Origin: Acidobacteriota bacterium
Lineage (GTDB): Bacteria; Acidobacteriota; Vicinamibacteria; Vicinamibacterales; UBA2999
Length of the DNA: 64,000 bases
Assembly: GCA_947482665.1 (NCBI GenBank)
Contig: CANKJK010000011.1
Span: forward strand, 1 to 64,000
Reading direction: 5' to 3'
Shown piece by piece: positions 6,871-14,941 of the stretch; the first letter of the stretch is position 1; each line of letters starts with the position of its first letter. The position numbers and the translations under genes were made by a program. Under the pieces are notes generated by a model. It saw nothing but the letters and a program-made list of their open reading frames with translations, did not search any database and was not told where the DNA came from.

Positions 6871-9072
6871 TCAGCGCGCCGCCGCGGCCCCGGGCAGTTG
6901 ACCATCGAGCAACGCTGCCGCCTTGACGGGATCGGCCGTCGGCAACCGGCAGACGTAGTTTTCGCAGAGATAGAGCGTGGCCCGGCCGCCGATCCGCTTC
7001 ATCGGCGCCACCGTCGGAAGCCACCGGGCCAGCTGACGCTGCCCGTCACCCCCATCCGCCAGCAGCACGACCGTCGCAGGCAGGAAACGCGCATGGACGA
7101 GGCGGAGCATCGCGCGCGTATCCGGCGCGCCAGGCTGGCCCGCGACAACGATCTGCTTCGGTGTCGACAGACTGAAGTCGAGTGCCGCCGCGAGTGAGGG
7201 CACGGAGGAACCGGCGCGCGTGAGCTGCGGCGAGAACGCCCGGAAGAGCGCATCCGCCCGGCTCCGCCACTCCTTGCGGTCGGTGACCTGCCACAGGCGC
7301 AGGAGATTCATCGCCGACACGGAGCTTGCCGCCGGCTCGGCGCCGTCGTAGTCGTCCTTGAAACGGGCCACCACGTCGGTGGCCAGCGCCGTGGTCGAGA
7401 AGTAGCCACCGGAGGCGGCGTCCCAGAAGAGACGGTCCTGCCGCTCCTGCAGGTCCACGGCCCAGGTCAGCCACTCGACCTCGAAGCTCGCTTCGTAGAG
7501 ATCAAGGAGGCCCGCGATGAGGCACGCGTAGTCCTCGGCGAGCGCCTCGATCTCGATCTGACCTCCGAGTGATCGGCGGCGCAGCCCTCCCGATGGGCTG
7601 TCCATCCGCGTCTTGATGAAGCGGGCGGCGGCACGCGCCGCGTCCAGATAGCGGGGCTCATCAAACGCCTGGGCCGCGCGCGACAGCGCGGTGATCGTCA
7701 GGCCGTTCCACGCCACCAGCACCTTCTCGTCCCGCGCGGGCCGCGCCCGCGTGCGTCGCGCCGCGGCCAGGGCCCGCATGGCCGAGGCGAGGCGCCGGCG
7801 GACCTCGGGCACGCCGAGGTGCATCCGGCGAGCCAGCTCCGCGTCCGTCACATGCAGCGCGAGCACGTTCTGCCCGGCCAGCTCGCCCTGGATGTCGAGT
7901 GCCGCGGGAACGTTCCCGGCCTCCTCGATGCCGAAGCGCGCCGCGATCAGCGGAAACGACTCGGTGCCAACAACCCGCCGCAGCTCCTGCGCGGTCCAGG
8001 TGTAGTAGGCCCCTTCCACATGCCGGCCATCGGCACGCGCGCTATCGGCATCCTCGGCCGCGTAGAATCCGCCGTCACGATCCCGCAGGTCACCAAGCAC
8101 GTAGTCCAACGTCTCGCGTGCGACGGTGCGAAAGAACGGATCGCGGGACACCTGGAACGCTTCGACGTAGGCCGACGCCAGCTGCGCCTGGTCGTAGAGC
8201 ATCTTCTCGAAGTGCGGCACGCGCCAGGCCTGGTCCGTGGCATAGCGGTGAAAGCCTCCGCCGACGTGGTCGCGGATGCCGCCCCGCGCCATCCCGCGAA
8301 GCGTCCCAAGCGTGGCGTCGAGCGCCGGCCGGGCACCGGTGCGCGCGTAGTAGCGCAGGAGGAACGTCAGGGTCACGGGGCGTGGAAACTTCGGCGCGCC
8401 GCCGAAGCCGCCCCACGTCGGGTCATAGGCCCGGCGCATCGAGGCGTACGCGGCATCGAGGGCCGTGCGATCCGCCCCGCCGACCGGCGTGAGACCGCGT
8501 GCGCGCGACTCGATCAACTCGCGGCTCTCACGCGATGCTTTGAGCAGCGTCGCACGGTCGGCCACCCACATCGTGCTGAGACTCGTCAGGATGGTACGGA
8601 AGCCCGGTTGCCCACTGCGGTCGTCGGGCGGCGCGTAGCTGATGCCGAAAAACGGATGCAGATCCGGCGTCAGGAACACGTTCGCCGGCCAGCCGCCCCC
8701 TGACACCGACGTCAGGTACGCCATGTAGACGCGGTCGAGGTCGGGCCGCTCCTCGCGGTCCACTTTGATCGCAATGAAGTTCTGGTTGAGCAGTTCGGCG
8801 ATGGCCGGGTCGCTGAAGGACTCTGCCTGCATCACGTGACACCAGTGGCAGGTTGAGTAGCCGATGGACAGGAAGATCGGCTTCTGCTCGCGGCGCGCCC
8901 GCTCCAGCGCGGCCGGCGACCAGGGATACCAGTCCACCGGGTCGTGCGCGTGCATCTGGAGATACGGGCTGGCCGACCCGGCCAGATGGTTCGTCCGGCC
9001 CTGCCCGGAGACGGCCACCCAGGGGCCGCACACCGCGGCGAAGAGCAGGAACGCCACCACCCGCCTCGTCAT
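6871..9072 (-). CDS. Exported DUF255/YyaL-family thioredoxin-like protein
   Basis: 733 residues. An N-terminal signal peptide (residues ~1-24) is followed by the DUF255 thioredoxin-like domain with hallmark NHLAGSASPYLQMHAHDPVDWYPW and a redox-type CHWCHVM motif (C75, C78). The rest is an (alpha/alpha)-barrel-like domain of the N-acylglucosamine 2-epimerase/cellobiose epimerase type (GGFHRYATDQAWRVPHFEKM and similar). The family includes bacterial YyaL and animal SPATA20; its biochemical role is not established. The signal peptide is notable because many homologues are cytosolic. The ATG at 9072 overlaps the TGA of the upstream nucleotidyltransferase (ATGA), so the two are expressed together. 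It ends 166 nt from tRNA-Ala, and I see nothing else in that gap. Confidence 0.88.
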   Translation of the reverse strand: MTRRVVAFLLFAAVCGPWVAVSGQGRTNHLAGSASPYLQMHAHDPVDWYPWSPAALERARREQKPIFLSIGYSTCHWCHVMQAESFSDPAIAELLNQNFIAIKVDREERPDLDRVYMAYLTSVSGGGWPANVFLTPDLHPFFGISYAPPDDRSGQPGFRTILTSLSTMWVADRATLLKASRESRELIESRARGLTPVGGADRTALDAAYASMRRAYDPTWGGFGGAPKFPRPVTLTFLLRYYARTGARPALDATLGTLRGMARGGIRDHVGGGFHRYATDQAWRVPHFEKMLYDQAQLASAYVEAFQVSRDPFFRTVARETLDYVLGDLRDRDGGFYAAEDADSARADGRHVEGAYYTWTAQELRRVVGTESFPLIAARFGIEEAGNVPAALDIQGELAGQNVLALHVTDAELARRMHLGVPEVRRRLASAMRALAAARRTRARPARDEKVLVAWNGLTITALSRAAQAFDEPRYLDAARAAARFIKTRMDSPSGGLRRRSLGGQIEIEALAEDYACLIAGLLDLYEASFEVEWLTWAVDLQERQDRLFWDAASGGYFSTTALATDVVARFKDDYDGAEPAASSVSAMNLLRLWQVTDRKEWRSRADALFRAFSPQLTRAGSSVPSLAAALDFSLSTPKQIVVAGQPGAPDTRAMLRLVHARFLPATVVLLADGGDGQRQLARWLPTVAPMKRIGGRATLYLCENYVCRLPTADPVKAAALLDGQLPGAAAAR

Positions 9073-11024: not shown

Positions 11025-11738
11025 CTATCCGCGCCGGAACCAGGACGACCAGCCCCCGACCTCGCGGACATCACCAGTGGCCGGGTCCAGACGCCGCACC
11101 TGTTTCGCCGTCGCGCGGGCAAAGCCCTCGTCGGCCGTCAGCACCAGCAGCGTCAGGGCGCGGACCTCGACGACCCGGGAGAGCGCCTCCGCCACCCCCG
11201 TGACCGACTCAGCAGGCACGAGGGCATTGGGATGCTCAGCCAGCAGGAGGGTCGGTTTCAGCGCGAGTGCCCGGCCAAGCCGCAGCCGCAGTTGCGCCAG
11301 CGGATCCAGCGTGGCGGCCATGCGGACCAGGTCAGGCTCGGCGAGTCCCACATCATTTGCCAGCGCGGTCACCTCCGCCAGGATCGACGGCGGAATCGGA
11401 TTGAGCTCCAGCGAAAACGGGAGTGCCAGATTCTGCGCGGCGGTCATAGCCTCAAGCAGCACCGCGCGGGGACTCAGCATCCCGAATCGGTCGAGCAGTG
11501 CGAGCCACGCCCCCCCGTCAGGGACGGAGGATGTGGGCGCCCCGAACACCTCCACCTCGCCCCGATCAGGCAGCGCGGACCCGGTGATGAGATCGACGAG
11601 GACCTCGGCTGCCGGACCATCGACGCCCGTGAGCGCGAGCGTCTCGCCCTCATGGAGCGTGAGTTCCCGCACACGCAAAGGCCGCAGACCGCCATACGCC
11701 TTCTCGACATCCCGCAGCCTGAGCAGGACCGGCGGCAT
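11025..11738 (-). CDS. Degenerate ABC-type ATPase domain protein
   Basis: 237 residues from ATG 11738. The ATG overlaps the PHP gene's stop as TGATG; an in-frame start at 11792 is less likely. Overall layout matches an ABC transporter ATP-binding subunit: LRLRDVEKAYGG at the start, a D-loop-like HPNAL and a RALALKPTLLLAE segment. Every catalytic motif is changed, however. Walker A is GVDGPAAEV instead of GxxGxGKST, with no lysine. The signature region is LDPLAQLRLRLGRAL instead of LSGGQ. Walker B is LLLAEHPN instead of LLLDEPT. The H-loop reads LLVLTADE with no histidine. It is therefore probably a non-hydrolysing pseudo-ATPase. No permease is adjacent. It is the last gene of the erpA-Fur/rubrerythrin-PHP operon. 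Confidence 0.7.
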   Translation of the reverse strand: MPPVLLRLRDVEKAYGGLRPLRVRELTLHEGETLALTGVDGPAAEVLVDLITGSALPDRGEVEVFGAPTSSVPDGGAWLALLDRFGMLSPRAVLLEAMTAAQNLALPFSLELNPIPPSILAEVTALANDVGLAEPDLVRMAATLDPLAQLRLRLGRALALKPTLLLAEHPNALVPAESVTGVAEALSRVVEVRALTLLVLTADEGFARATAKQVRRLDPATGDVREVGGWSSWFRRG

Positions 11739-12550
11739 CAGCGGAGCCGGGCGCGCAGCGCGGTCCACACGGCATCCGGCACGCGCGAGCACCCGGGCAT
11801 GCGTGCCTGCTCGGGGTCGCCATGGTAGTCGGAGCCACCCGTCATGAGCAGGCCGTGCTCCTCGGCAAACTGACGGTAGCGGTCACGCACCGAGGGTGAA
11901 TGGTCAGGATGAAACACCTCGATGGCCGGCAACCCGTCTTCCACGAAGGCCCGGAGGCGCGCATCGATGCCGGCCTTGCCCGGATGGGCGAGCGCCGCAA
12001 GGCCTCCGGCGCGGCTGACCACGGCCACCACATCGCGGACCGGTGCCCCTTCACGGGGCACGAAGGCCGGACACCCACCGGCCAGCCAGCGGTCAAAGGC
12101 CTCAGCCATCGAGCGCACATGGCCCGCCGCGACCAATGCGCGCGCGATATGGGGCCGCCCCACGGAACGACCAGCCGGCACCCCGTCCATCACGGCGTCC
12201 ACATCGATCGGCACGCCGAGCTGCGCGAGCCGCGCGCCGATCTGGTAGGTCCGCTCACGCCGGGCGGCCATCTGACTCGTCAGGAACACCTGGAGTTCGG
12301 GATACTCGGCGTCGAAGCCGTAGCCCAGCACGTGGACATCCCGGCCCTCTTCCACCGCGGTGATCTCGATGCCAGTCAGCACGGTCAAGCCGCGCGCGGC
12401 TCCCAAGGCGGCAACCTCCTCGTACGCCGCCACGGTGTCGTGGTCGGTCACGGCCATCACGCGGATGTCCGCCGCCGCCACCGCATCGACCAGTTCGGCC
12501 GGCGTCGAGCGACCGTCGGACGCGGTGGTGTGGAGATGGAGATCGATCAC
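11738..12550 (-). CDS. PHP-domain phosphoesterase (RNase AM/YciV-like)
   Basis: 270 residues, essentially one PHP domain. All expected metal-binding motifs are present: DLHLHTTASDG at residues 3-13, TDHDT at 35-39, GIEIT, ALAHPGK in the second half, and GGSDYHGD near the C-terminus. The same architecture is found in E. coli YciV/RNase AM, a 5'-3' exonuclease and 3',5'-nucleotide phosphatase, and in Chromobacterium TrpH-type enzymes that hydrolyse pAp. The likely reaction is therefore removal of phosphate from short nucleotides such as pAp. The start is GTG 12550, overlapping the Fur/rubrerythrin stop (GTGA); it is followed immediately by the ABC-like gene (TGATG). Confidence 0.88.
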   Translation of the reverse strand: MIDLHLHTTASDGRSTPAELVDAVAAADIRVMAVTDHDTVAAYEEVAALGAARGLTVLTGIEITAVEEGRDVHVLGYGFDAEYPELQVFLTSQMAARRERTYQIGARLAQLGVPIDVDAVMDGVPAGRSVGRPHIARALVAAGHVRSMAEAFDRWLAGGCPAFVPREGAPVRDVVAVVSRAGGLAALAHPGKAGIDARLRAFVEDGLPAIEVFHPDHSPSVRDRYRQFAEEHGLLMTGGSDYHGDPEQARMPGCSRVPDAVWTALRARLR

Positions 12551-13536
12551 GCGCGGCGACCCTGGCGGGTGCCTCGGGCGGCGGGCACACCCGCCCCCTT
12601 CCGTGGGCGACGCCCCTGGCGCTTCACGAGCGCACGGTACTCGCGCATGAGCAGGTCGAGATGCTCCCGCTCCTCGCTGGCAAACTCGAGAAAGATTTGC
12701 TTGCCCTCGGAGTCTTCGAATCGTTCGCCGTACTTCTTGAAGAACTGGTGCGACCCGCGTTCGCAGCGAATGCCCACCAGGAGCGCCTGCTGATCGTCCA
12801 CGCCCTGGAGCAGGCGATCCGCGCCTTCCGCAAACAGGCCGTGCGCCGCACCTTTGAAGAAGAGAAAGGTGGGCCGCGTCTCGAGCTCAGGGTCACGCTT
12901 GAGCAGTTCCGCGTAGCGCCCCTCGAGTGTGCCGAGGTGGTGACGTTCCTCCTCGGCGAGCTTCTGGAAGATCGATCGTCCGCGAGCGTCTTTCGTCAGT
13001 CGCGCCGCGCGGGTGTAGAACTCCAGCCCGCTCCGCTCGGTGGCGATGGCCATGCGGAGTGCGTCACGCGCAAACAGCAGGTCCGTCAGGCCATGGTCCG
13101 ACCCGGCGGGCCGGCCGTGCTGACAGTCCTCGCACACACCGTGAATCTGCACCACGGTCTGCGAGGCCGAGAACCCCCGCGACGCGGCCACCTCGTCGAC
13201 GAGCTGCTCGATGTCCGAGCTCATGAACTCGAACGAGCGATGACACTTGTTGCAGATGAGATGGTTGTGGCGGGGGTGGTGATACGAGCGCTCGTAGCGC
13301 GCAAGGCCATCGCCGAAGTCGACCCTGCTGGCAATGCCCGCGTCCACCATCCACTGGATGGTCCGGTAGACGGTGGCGCGGCTGACGCGCCGATCGTCGC
13401 GCTGGACGCGCGAGACGAGTTCCTCGGCCGTGAGGTGCCCCTCTTCGTTCAGAAAGACGTTGAGGATCTGCTCCCGCTTGCTCGACCGCTTGCCGCCGGC
13501 GGGCTTGAGATCACGAACGTCGGGAAGAGTGGACAC
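12547..13536 (-). CDS. Fur-family regulator fused to a rubrerythrin-like diiron domain
   Basis: 329 residues with two domains. Residues ~15-140 are a complete Fur/PerR-type repressor: winged helix with VSRATVYRTIQWM (52-64), metal-sensing SYHHPRHNHLIC (84-95), and the structural zinc cysteines CNKC (C95, C98) and CEDC (C135, C138). Residues ~150-305 are a ferritin-like four-helix bundle of the rubrerythrin (COG1633) type, with the expected ligand pattern: E167, ExxH in LAEEERHH (196-200), E259, and ExxH at E289/H292. The C-terminal tail is Arg/Gly-rich. No frameshift is needed; the fusion is one continuous frame. A metal- or peroxide-sensing repressor carrying its own diiron site is the obvious inference. 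GTG start at 13536, 38 nt after erpA, coupled by GTGA to the PHP gene. Confidence 0.9.
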   Translation of the reverse strand: MSTLPDVRDLKPAGGKRSSKREQILNVFLNEEGHLTAEELVSRVQRDDRRVSRATVYRTIQWMVDAGIASRVDFGDGLARYERSYHHPRHNHLICNKCHRSFEFMSSDIEQLVDEVAASRGFSASQTVVQIHGVCEDCQHGRPAGSDHGLTDLLFARDALRMAIATERSGLEFYTRAARLTKDARGRSIFQKLAEEERHHLGTLEGRYAELLKRDPELETRPTFLFFKGAAHGLFAEGADRLLQGVDDQQALLVGIRCERGSHQFFKKYGERFEDSEGKQIFLEFASEEREHLDLLMREYRALVKRQGRRPRKGAGVPAARGTRQGRRA

Positions 13537-13574: not shown

Positions 13575-13934
13575 CTAGTGCTGGTGACCGTGGTCGCCGC
13601 CGCCTTCGCCCTCGACGCTGAAGGACGAGCCGCAGCCGCAGGTGGAGGTGGCGTTCGGGTTCTTGATGGTGAAGCCGCCGCCGGTCACCGTGTCGACGAA
13701 GTCGACCTCGGCGCCCTTCAGATAGCTCACGCTGACCGGGTCGACGAACAGCCTGATGCCGTTGGATTCAAACACCTGGTCACCGGCGCCGCCGGCTTCC
13801 TCGATCATCAGGCCGTACTGGAACCCGGAGCAGCCGCCGCCCTGAACGAAGACGCGAAGACCGCTGCCGGTCTTGCCCTCTTCCGTCAGAAGTTCTGAGA
13901 TTTTCGTTGCAGCAACCGGAGAGACGTTAATCAT
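13575..13934 (-). CDS. erpA: A-type iron-sulfur carrier protein (ErpA/IscA family)
   Basis: 119 residues from ATG 13934. The HesB/IscA fold is clear: VSPVAATKISELL at the start, and the three cluster-binding cysteines in QGGGCSGFQYGL and near the C-terminus in TSTCGCGSSF. A-type carriers receive 4Fe-4S clusters from the assembly scaffold and pass them to apoproteins. The C-terminal tail after CGCG is acidic and ends in GGDHGHQH, an extra metal-binding-like extension. The longer frame starting at 14009 is rejected because a TATAAT box and a good ribosome-binding site (GAGGAG) both lie in front of the ATG at 13934. It heads the operon with the Fur/rubrerythrin fusion. ErpA versus IscA is not decided by sequence alone. 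Confidence 0.9.
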   Translation of the reverse strand: MINVSPVAATKISELLTEEGKTGSGLRVFVQGGGCSGFQYGLMIEEAGGAGDQVFESNGIRLFVDPVSVSYLKGAEVDFVDTVTGGGFTIKNPNATSTCGCGSSFSVEGEGGGDHGHQH

Positions 13935-13964
13935 GGGTTCTATGGCTCCTCGTGGGATGGCTGA

Positions 13965-13970
13965 ATTATA
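13965..13970 (-). promoter_or_regulatory. -10 box of the erpA operon
   Basis: TATAAT on the minus strand, 30 nt upstream of the erpA ATG. It leaves a ~24-nt leader with a GAGGAG ribosome-binding site, unlike most other boxes in this window, which sit almost on the start codon. No strong -35 is visible. This would be the place to look for Fur-type control. Confidence 0.5.
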
Positions 13971-14026
13971 TCCCAGCCGTTCTCTTGCGGCCGGAGCCGG
14001 GAGTGCCATAACCTCGGGACCCGGTC

Positions 14027-14941
14027 ATGTTGTCTCCGTTATCCCAGCGCCTGCACGACCGGCTCCTCGAAATCCACGCGGATCGGCCCGATTTGGCCGC
14101 CGCGCTCGATCTGCAGCGAAATCTGCTCTCCCGGGAACTCGAGCTCCTCGAGATGTTCCTCGCCGGGGGCCTCCCGCGGCTGTCGCTCCCTGGCCGATAC
14201 CTGGCCACCAAGCTGCGCGACGGCATTCCCGCCCTCTTTTCGGAGCCGGTCCCGCTCCCCCAGCACCTGCTGACGCTGGCGCTCCGAGACTTCTGCGGAC
14301 GGCTCGCCACGGGCCGGACTGAGGCAAGCGCGCGGGCCATCCAGACCGCGTTCGATGGCCCGCTCCCACCGGCCGCCGTCATCTCAGCCTGCTTCGGGAG
14401 AGACCAGACGCAGGTGCGAGCGCTCGCCCAGCACGCGTCGGTTGCCCCGGACCTCCTGTGGCTCATCGCCGAGCTGACGGTCGCGCCCCTGGCGCACTTG
14501 CTCCAGCGACAGCTCTTCGAGGGCGCCAGTGCGGCACCGGGTACGCCCCTGGCCGAGGCGGTCGCGCAGTGGGACCGCGGGTTCTGCCCCGCGTGCGGGT
14601 CCTGGCCGGCGCTGCTCGAAGCGGGCGAGGCCGGACATACGCTGCGGTGCTCCTTCTGCGCGCTGGGCTGGGTGATGGCGAGTTATCGCTGCATCTACTG
14701 CGGCAACGACGGAGAGTCCTTCCTGACGGCGAGGCCGGACCCGGAACACCCCGGCCGGCGGCTGCAGTTCTGCGGCGAGTGCGGCGGCTACGCGAAGGTG
14801 TTGGACCTGGCGAGGCCCACCGAGTTCCCCCTCGTCGCGATCGAGGACCTCGCCTCGCTCGACCTCGACATGATGGCCATCGAGCGCCAGTACGGCCGGC
14901 CGGCCCTGCCGACGATCACGCGCCGGCCCGCGCGCGGCTGA
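14027..14941 (+). CDS. fdhE: FdhE-like formate dehydrogenase accessory protein
   Basis: 304 residues, the usual length of FdhE. Four CxxC pairs in the C-terminal half form two rubredoxin-like iron sites: CPAC (C187, C190), CSFC, CIYC (in YRCIYCGNDGE) and CGEC. FdhE binds formate dehydrogenases and supports their maturation. The N-terminal half is helical (DLAAALDLQRNLL, ELELLEMFL), as in the family. It is divergent from erpA with a 92-nt spacer. No formate dehydrogenase structural gene is present in the window, so the partner must be elsewhere. The 164-nt gap that follows contains a small hairpin at 14947-14961 (GTCTCA/TGAGAC) and nothing else I can support. Confidence 0.85.
   Translation: MLSPLSQRLHDRLLEIHADRPDLAAALDLQRNLLSRELELLEMFLAGGLPRLSLPGRYLATKLRDGIPALFSEPVPLPQHLLTLALRDFCGRLATGRTEASARAIQTAFDGPLPPAAVISACFGRDQTQVRALAQHASVAPDLLWLIAELTVAPLAHLLQRQLFEGASAAPGTPLAEAVAQWDRGFCPACGSWPALLEAGEAGHTLRCSFCALGWVMASYRCIYCGNDGESFLTARPDPEHPGRRLQFCGECGGYAKVLDLARPTEFPLVAIEDLASLDLDMMAIERQYGRPALPTITRRPARG

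Follow-up and report, generated by a model that had tools for sequence, protein, structure and literature searches.

A Fur-Type Regulator Fused to a Ferritin-Like Diiron Domain Is Conserved in Vicinamibacterales and Is a Candidate Two-Input Repressor of Iron Uptake

Introduction

Few bacterial regulators have been studied as thoroughly as Fur, and a survey of 761 genomes in 2018 found it to be a "monolithic" family with few architectures (PMC5882156). The protein described here contrasts with this reputation. In the Vicinamibacterales, an order of soil and water bacteria, a Fur domain and a ferritin-like diiron domain form one conserved chain. Like the Fur proteins of E. coli, B. subtilis and M. 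gryphiswaldense, the fusion has the whole Fur domain with its Cys4 zinc site and S2 ligands, carries the Fur-type residues R58 and E103, and is associated with a predicted 7-1-7 operator near iron-uptake genes. Unlike these proteins, it has an additional C-terminal ferritin-like diiron domain of about 160 residues. PerR shares the fold and most ligands of the regulatory site but has Asn61 and Asp104 where the fusion has invariant Arg58 and Glu103, and peroxide sensing by the fusion, if any, would be expected at the diiron site.

The second domain resembles COG1633 proteins and rubrerythrin (2oh3, 2fzf, 1vjx, 1ryt) in its four-helix bundle with the E...ExxH pattern occurring twice. In contrast to these proteins, the bundle is joined to a DNA-binding repressor. 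A ferritin-like domain placed C-terminal to another module is also found in the DJ-1/ferritin-like protein Ava_4496 (3fse; VIA-align Z 13.8), which, unlike the fusion, has no DNA-binding domain. As functional analogues, plant BRUTUS (BTS) and animal FBXL5 combine a diiron helical bundle and an iron-uptake effector in one chain, but these proteins belong to the hemerythrin superfamily, are eukaryotic, and act via protein degradation and not via DNA binding. In BTS, the diiron centres show reactivity towards O2 and H2O2, and their reduced form is labile (PMC12022348).

A diiron-gated Fur would be a bacterial counterpart of the hemerythrin-based sensors FBXL5 and BRUTUS, and a possible analogue of the iron sensors with diiron sites found in animals and plants; throughout a bacterial order, one protein would then adjust iron uptake to both iron and oxygen. 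How iron sensing is linked to oxygen sensing becomes directly testable within a single polypeptide, and a defined operator with a target set (FTR1, feo, TonB receptors) becomes available for a poorly studied environmental lineage. An earlier reading of the locus, made from the DNA letters and here called the sequence-only reading, knew of no characterised protein of this architecture. Our own search of 5.4 million open-access papers likewise revealed no account of a protein that joins Fur to rubrerythrin.

Results

Domain Architecture and Genomic Neighbourhood

The features of the locus are listed in Table 1; the window is the whole stretch of acidobacterial DNA analysed, 64,000 nt in length.

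Table 1. Features of the fusion locus, with positions in the window. TGAGACTNAGTCTCA is the palindrome described under the operator sites.
Feature	Position	Strand	Evidence or remarks
Fur-diiron fusion gene	12547..13536	minus	329 aa, GTG start
Fur domain, residues 14-140	13117..13497	minus	Pfam PF01475, conservation, structure
Ferritin-like four-helix diiron domain, residues 151-308	12613..13086	minus	Pfam PF02915, AlphaFold2 helices, VIA-align, profile
erpA-like A-type Fe-S carrier gene	13575..13934	minus	PF01521, E 3e-19; synteny
PHP-domain phosphoesterase gene	11738..12550	minus	PF02811; coordinates; synteny
ABC-transporter ATPase-like gene	11025..11792	minus	PF00005; synteny
erpA/fdhE divergent intergenic region	13935..14026		TATAAT-type promoter, without TGAGACTNAGTCTCA-type box

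The fusion gene is one open frame from start to stop. Pfam placed the FUR family at residues 14-131 of 329 (E 2.8e-27; 95.7 bits versus a cut-off of 23.1) and found Rubrerythrin above its cut-off in two stretches, the best of which spans residues 158-211 (E 6e-11). An AlphaFold2 model built from a 45-sequence alignment (mean pLDDT 88, pTM 0.81) predicted a Fur fold and, C-terminal to it, four long helices (151-180, 184-214, 248-272 and 277-308). The top-ranked Foldseek matches of this model were Fur structures, with solved Furs at roughly 25-39% identity. VIA-align superimposed residues 6-139 onto Francisella Fur (5nhk; Z 13.2, 2.0 Å) and residues 151-309 onto the COG1633 protein 2oh3 (Z 15.1, 3.2 Å, 139 residues aligned). 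The bundle was also aligned to rubrerythrin 1ryt with a Z of 14.1, and the scores ranged from 13.9 to 15.1 across 2oh3, 1ryt and 2fzf. The reading frame, Pfam, AlphaFold2 and VIA-align thus agree with the sequence-only reading, which had proposed a single 329-residue frame consisting of a Fur repressor and a rubrerythrin-like domain.

The erpA gene lies 38 nt upstream in the same direction, and the fusion is the second gene of an operon that begins with an iron-sulfur carrier gene, as had been stated before. Wherever a Vicinamibacterales locus extends far enough, erpA and the fusion gene are adjacent in essentially every case. The order of genes in these loci is erpA, fusion, usually then the PHP gene, and often the ABC ATPase gene. 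The GTG start of the PHP gene overlaps the stop of the fusion gene by 4 nt, and the two are therefore probably co-translated. Divergent from erpA, an arrangement common to many relatives, is an FdhE-like gene (14027-14941, plus strand), and the two promoters consequently share less than 100 nt. Overlapping inverted TATAAT/TATACT elements stand between erpA and fdhE in some relatives. The sequence-only reading had suggested looking for Fur-like boxes upstream of erpA. None was found, and a matrix scan of this region performed no better than on shuffled sequence. Autoregulation via such a box was rejected; the only shared elements are sigma70-like TATAAT. Further away, a gene on the minus strand (6871-9072) encodes a DUF255/YyaL-type thioredoxin-domain protein (PF03190) of 733 aa.

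Distribution of the Fusion

Searching 84,980 species genomes with the window protein as query yielded 71 loci. Fusions with 57-75% identity accounted for 69 of these, a few of them broken or truncated at contig ends, while two loci had one domain only. The genomes were nearly all titled Acidobacteria, Vicinamibacteria or Luteitalea. Bins titled Acidimicrobiia, Bifidobacterium breve or Woeseiaceae also carry the fusion (L005, L007, L049, L054, L061); they are probably misnamed or mixed, since Vicinamibacterales gene order surrounds their fusions. Full-length fusions from independent assemblies, 66 with that of the window included, align end to end in one frame.

Among 396 acidobacterial genomes, the fusion was present in 41 of the 42 sampled genomes of Vicinamibacterales and in none of four sampled members of other orders of the same class. 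The one sampled genome of the order that lacks it (G341, 100% complete) carries a single Fur-family gene, which is of another type, and is free of the strict-form operator box (see below). Diverged fusions with roughly 32-42% identity occur in about 28 genomes of ten other acidobacterial families; their surroundings differ from those in the order, and no constant gene partner was seen among their neighbours.

In the genome of the window (97% complete) the fusion is the sole Fur-family gene. Counting the window genome, 28 sampled genomes of its family and order have at least one Fur-family gene, and in 18 of these the fusion is the only one. Some genomes of the diverged clade have the fusion alone and others have one to three extra Fur-family genes.

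The Fur Half

The full Fur domain with zinc cysteines and regulatory histidines proposed by the sequence-only reading is present. The zinc site (C95/C98/C135/C138) is invariant in the 66 fusions save for C95 and C98, each of which is masked in one sequence, and the S2 regulatory site (H34/E82/H90/H92/E103) is essentially invariant. All nine residues are invariant in the 45 aligned fusions. The fusions of the order differ from Fur proteins in the HHDH motif, where the first His is replaced by R89 and the Asp mostly by F or Y at position 91 (N91 in the window); the diverged fusions mostly keep His at position 89. In other Furs, the first His and the Asp of this motif belong to the S3 site.

The same reading had left the type of the domain as "Fur/PerR", and of these the Fur part stands. 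Asn61 and Asp104 distinguish PerR from Fur (PMC8638851, PMC4866751), while Fur has an Arg in helix 4 and a Glu at the position of PerR D104 (PMC8638851). The fusion has R58 in helix 4 and E103 at the D104 position, in 66 of 66 fusions of the order and in 15 of 15 diverged fusions. Because both residues are invariant, the Fur half is of the Fur type, and a PerR identity was rejected. With these residues, H2O2 sensing is not expected at the Fur site of the fusion (PMC4866751).

The Diiron Half

The four predicted bundle helices carry E167, E197/H200, E259 and E289/H292, i.e., one E and one ExxH on each half of the bundle, as in ferritin-like/COG1633 proteins. Each of these six putative diiron ligands is present in 66 of 66 fusions of the order. 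Among 15 diverged fusions, E197, H200, E259 and H292 were found in all and E167 and E289 in 14. The ligand list proposed earlier was right for E167, E259, E289 and H292 but off by one for the second pair: in the sequence EEERHH the conserved ExxH is E197-x-x-H200 and not E196/H199, and position 199 is His in only 12 of the 66 fusions. Compared with the Fur half, the diiron half is better conserved (mean identity to the window residue 0.78 versus 0.64). The strict conservation of the ligands favours a working metal centre, and the bundle is very likely, judged by these residues, to bind two irons.

A profile of the diiron domain matched known ferritin-like proteins and designed diiron proteins that share its E...ExxH pattern, and its ligand positions coincide with those of the designed proteins. 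Across 199 genomes, all matches to E 5e-31 were fusion loci, and the best stand-alone protein scored 1.5e-26. Profile scores set the diiron domains of the fusions apart from the separate ferritin-like proteins.

Calling the domain "rubrerythrin-like" holds at the level of the fold and fails for the classical peroxidase rubrerythrin. A rubredoxin Cys4 domain is absent, as the window protein has no Cys after C258 and ends in a basic C-terminal tail. The seventh ligand of classical rubrerythrin is a Glu three residues past the helix-3 Glu (E97 in D. vulgaris). The corresponding position E259+3 is S262 in 66 of 66 fusions of the order and A, S, N or T in the 15 diverged ones. Since there is no rubredoxin domain and Ser stands at E259+3, the site rather resembles the ferritin/COG1633 type, which is symmetric and has six ligands.

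C258 (12760-12768 region, minus strand) adjoins E259, is invariant in the 66 fusions of the order, in contrast to COG1633 proteins and rubrerythrin, and is absent from the diverged fusions; a redox role of this residue is possible. One diverged fusion (L106; G203 C30, 5305-6261, minus strand) has lost two ligands (E167Q and E289A). Its genome holds three further Fur-family genes, and it offers a natural "dead site" for comparison.

A Palindrome at Iron-Uptake Genes

A palindrome was first spotted by reading upstream of feoA in relatives. The pattern TGAGANNNNNTCTCA gave 64 matches in 31 genomes, and the reversed control gave none. Its five free middle bases are CTNAG-like, so that the operator can be written as the 7-1-7 palindrome TGAGACTNAGTCTCA. 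A 7-1-7 site is bound by a single Fur dimer at feoAB1 of M. gryphiswaldense (PMC11353095). According to Pfam, the 98 genes flanking 59 sites include 11 TonB plugs, 10 FeoB_N, 4 FeoA, 5 PepSY_TM and 3 FTR1, and none of the listed families is a peroxide-defence family. As for Fur proper, 7-1-7 operators thus stand at iron-uptake genes, and the fusion can be inferred as the binding protein; we consider it very probable that it binds TGAGACTNAGTCTCA.

Only two sites are found in the window genome. One is located 16 nt before an FTR1 permease gene, with TGAGATTGCTTCTCA as predicted operator (consensus TGAGACTCAGTCTCA), and the other adjoins a TonB receptor gene. A clear FeoB was not found in this genome. 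Allowing 3 mismatches gave no excess of operator sites (26 versus 29 in the control), and we therefore claim no further targets there. The E. coli-type Fur box TGATAATNATTATCA was also considered and rejected: the window genome has none at up to 2 mismatches, and the eleven sites with 3 mismatches lie mostly within reading frames and none by an obvious iron gene.

The strict form TGAGAYTNARTCTCA was present in 21 of 42 genomes of the order versus 34 of 354 elsewhere (Fisher p 1.6e-9). Acidobacterial genomes without the fusion also have the box, which rules it out as a strict marker of the fusion. As it is present elsewhere, including at feoB in three loci of other families (L221, L224, L225), the TGAGACTNAGTCTCA-type box looks like a phylum-wide Fur box.

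Discussion

A Repressor with a Possible Second Input

We consider it probable that the fusion is the housekeeping iron repressor of the lineage and that the diiron bundle adds a second input. The role as repressor of iron uptake is well supported by inference, and the role of the diiron half is a hypothesis that builds on the invariant ligands. A dimeric, Fe(II)-activated repressor would bind TGAGACTNAGTCTCA at iron-uptake genes, with the ferritin-like diiron domain sitting behind the dimerisation domain of Fur. Once H34, E82, H90, H92 and E103 have bound Fe(II), the Fur half would be locked on DNA. A second input would come from the diiron site at the C-terminus, which would fill with Fe(II) or be oxidised by O2 or peroxide; its state would alter repression, so that iron uptake would track both iron level and oxidant load. 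Since the fusion is the sole Fur in many genomes, iron uptake there is probably governed by a repressor that has a second sensor, for iron, oxygen or peroxide, in the same chain. BTS of plants demonstrates that diiron bundles can read iron via O2/H2O2 redox chemistry and lability (PMC12022348). For the fusion, it is a hypothesis that the diiron site itself senses iron, oxygen or peroxide. That the bundle modulates repression, rather than merely protecting or stabilising the protein, appears somewhat favoured. The chances are even for the more specific proposal of a one-chain, two-input repressor, in which the Fur site responds to Fe(II) and the diiron site to oxidant load (O2/H2O2) or to a second range of iron.

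Alternative Explanations

The strongest competitor of the sensor reading is that the bundle protects the Fur half. A protective or storage-like bundle would keep the Fur half working in oxic cells by scavenging peroxide, or by oxidising Fe(II) and holding it near the Fur half, and would give no conformational signal. The fold family of the bundle includes ferroxidases and peroxidases, the diiron ligands are invariant, and H2O2 is not expected to affect the Fur-type site itself (PMC4866751), all of which would suit such a function. A regulator is, however, far too scarce to buffer the iron or peroxide of the cell, and the bundle has no rubredoxin domain and no obvious electron donor. The window genome encodes a separate rubrerythrin and a bacterioferritin-like protein, and this argues against bulk detoxification. 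Altogether we regard a purely protective role as unlikely, though to be taken seriously.

Another regulator might own the operators. DtxR-family genes occur in 28 of 31 sampled genomes, that of the window included, and for this reason TGAGACTNAGTCTCA is not assigned to the fusion beyond doubt. If the sites belonged to a DtxR/IdeR-family regulator, the fusion would control, e.g., Fe-S or oxidative-stress genes; the lack of a box at its own operon is in line with this. The distribution of boxes at the feoAB loci of relatives speaks against it: seven loci that adjoin a dtxR-family gene have no TGAGACTNAGTCTCA box (L121, L123, L124, L126-L129), whereas eight others have the box and no dtxR nearby (L130, L133, L134, L136-L140). 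This suggests that the two kinds of locus are two separately regulated importers of ferrous iron or manganese. Known DtxR boxes look different from TGAGACTNAGTCTCA, which has the Fur-like 7-1-7 form, TGA...TCA, and other acidobacterial families also have it at feoB. We therefore judge DtxR control of the sites improbable and retain the fusion as the candidate repressor.

The bundle could also be a structural or oligomerisation module with a relic metal site, leaving a plain Fur. Ferritin-like bundles often dimerise, and the diverged fusion with E167Q and E289A would fit a dispensable site. A structural role would not, however, hold six ligands invariant in 66 fusions and nearly so in 15 diverged ones, and we find this explanation quite improbable.

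A PerR-like sensor, in which H2O2 inactivates the repressor and derepresses peroxide-defence genes, has very little probability. The fusion does belong to the Fur superfamily, and PerR regulates rubrerythrin genes in other bacteria. Against this, every sequence has the Fur-type R58 and E103, and the boxes stand mainly at iron uptake.

That two genes were joined by a sequencing or assembly artefact has practically no probability: a frameshift is refuted by the 66 full-length orthologues, which come from independent assemblies, share the fusion in one frame and keep the surrounding gene order. Neither of the two outcomes that the sequence-only reading had named as speaking against it, a frameshift and the absence of the fusion from relatives, applies.

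Origin of the Fusion

In a tree of the Fur domain, the fusions of the order and the diverged fusions formed two clades, and a single clade was not rejected (AU p 0.27). A tree of the diiron domain placed every fusion on one side of a branch, which was unsupported (66/28). A single old origin of the fusion would fit both domain trees, without being proven by them. In one diverged fusion from a single-contig genome (L105; G156 C1:1260000-1271500), the Fur half lies inside a run of N, and annotation of this locus would show the diiron half alone.
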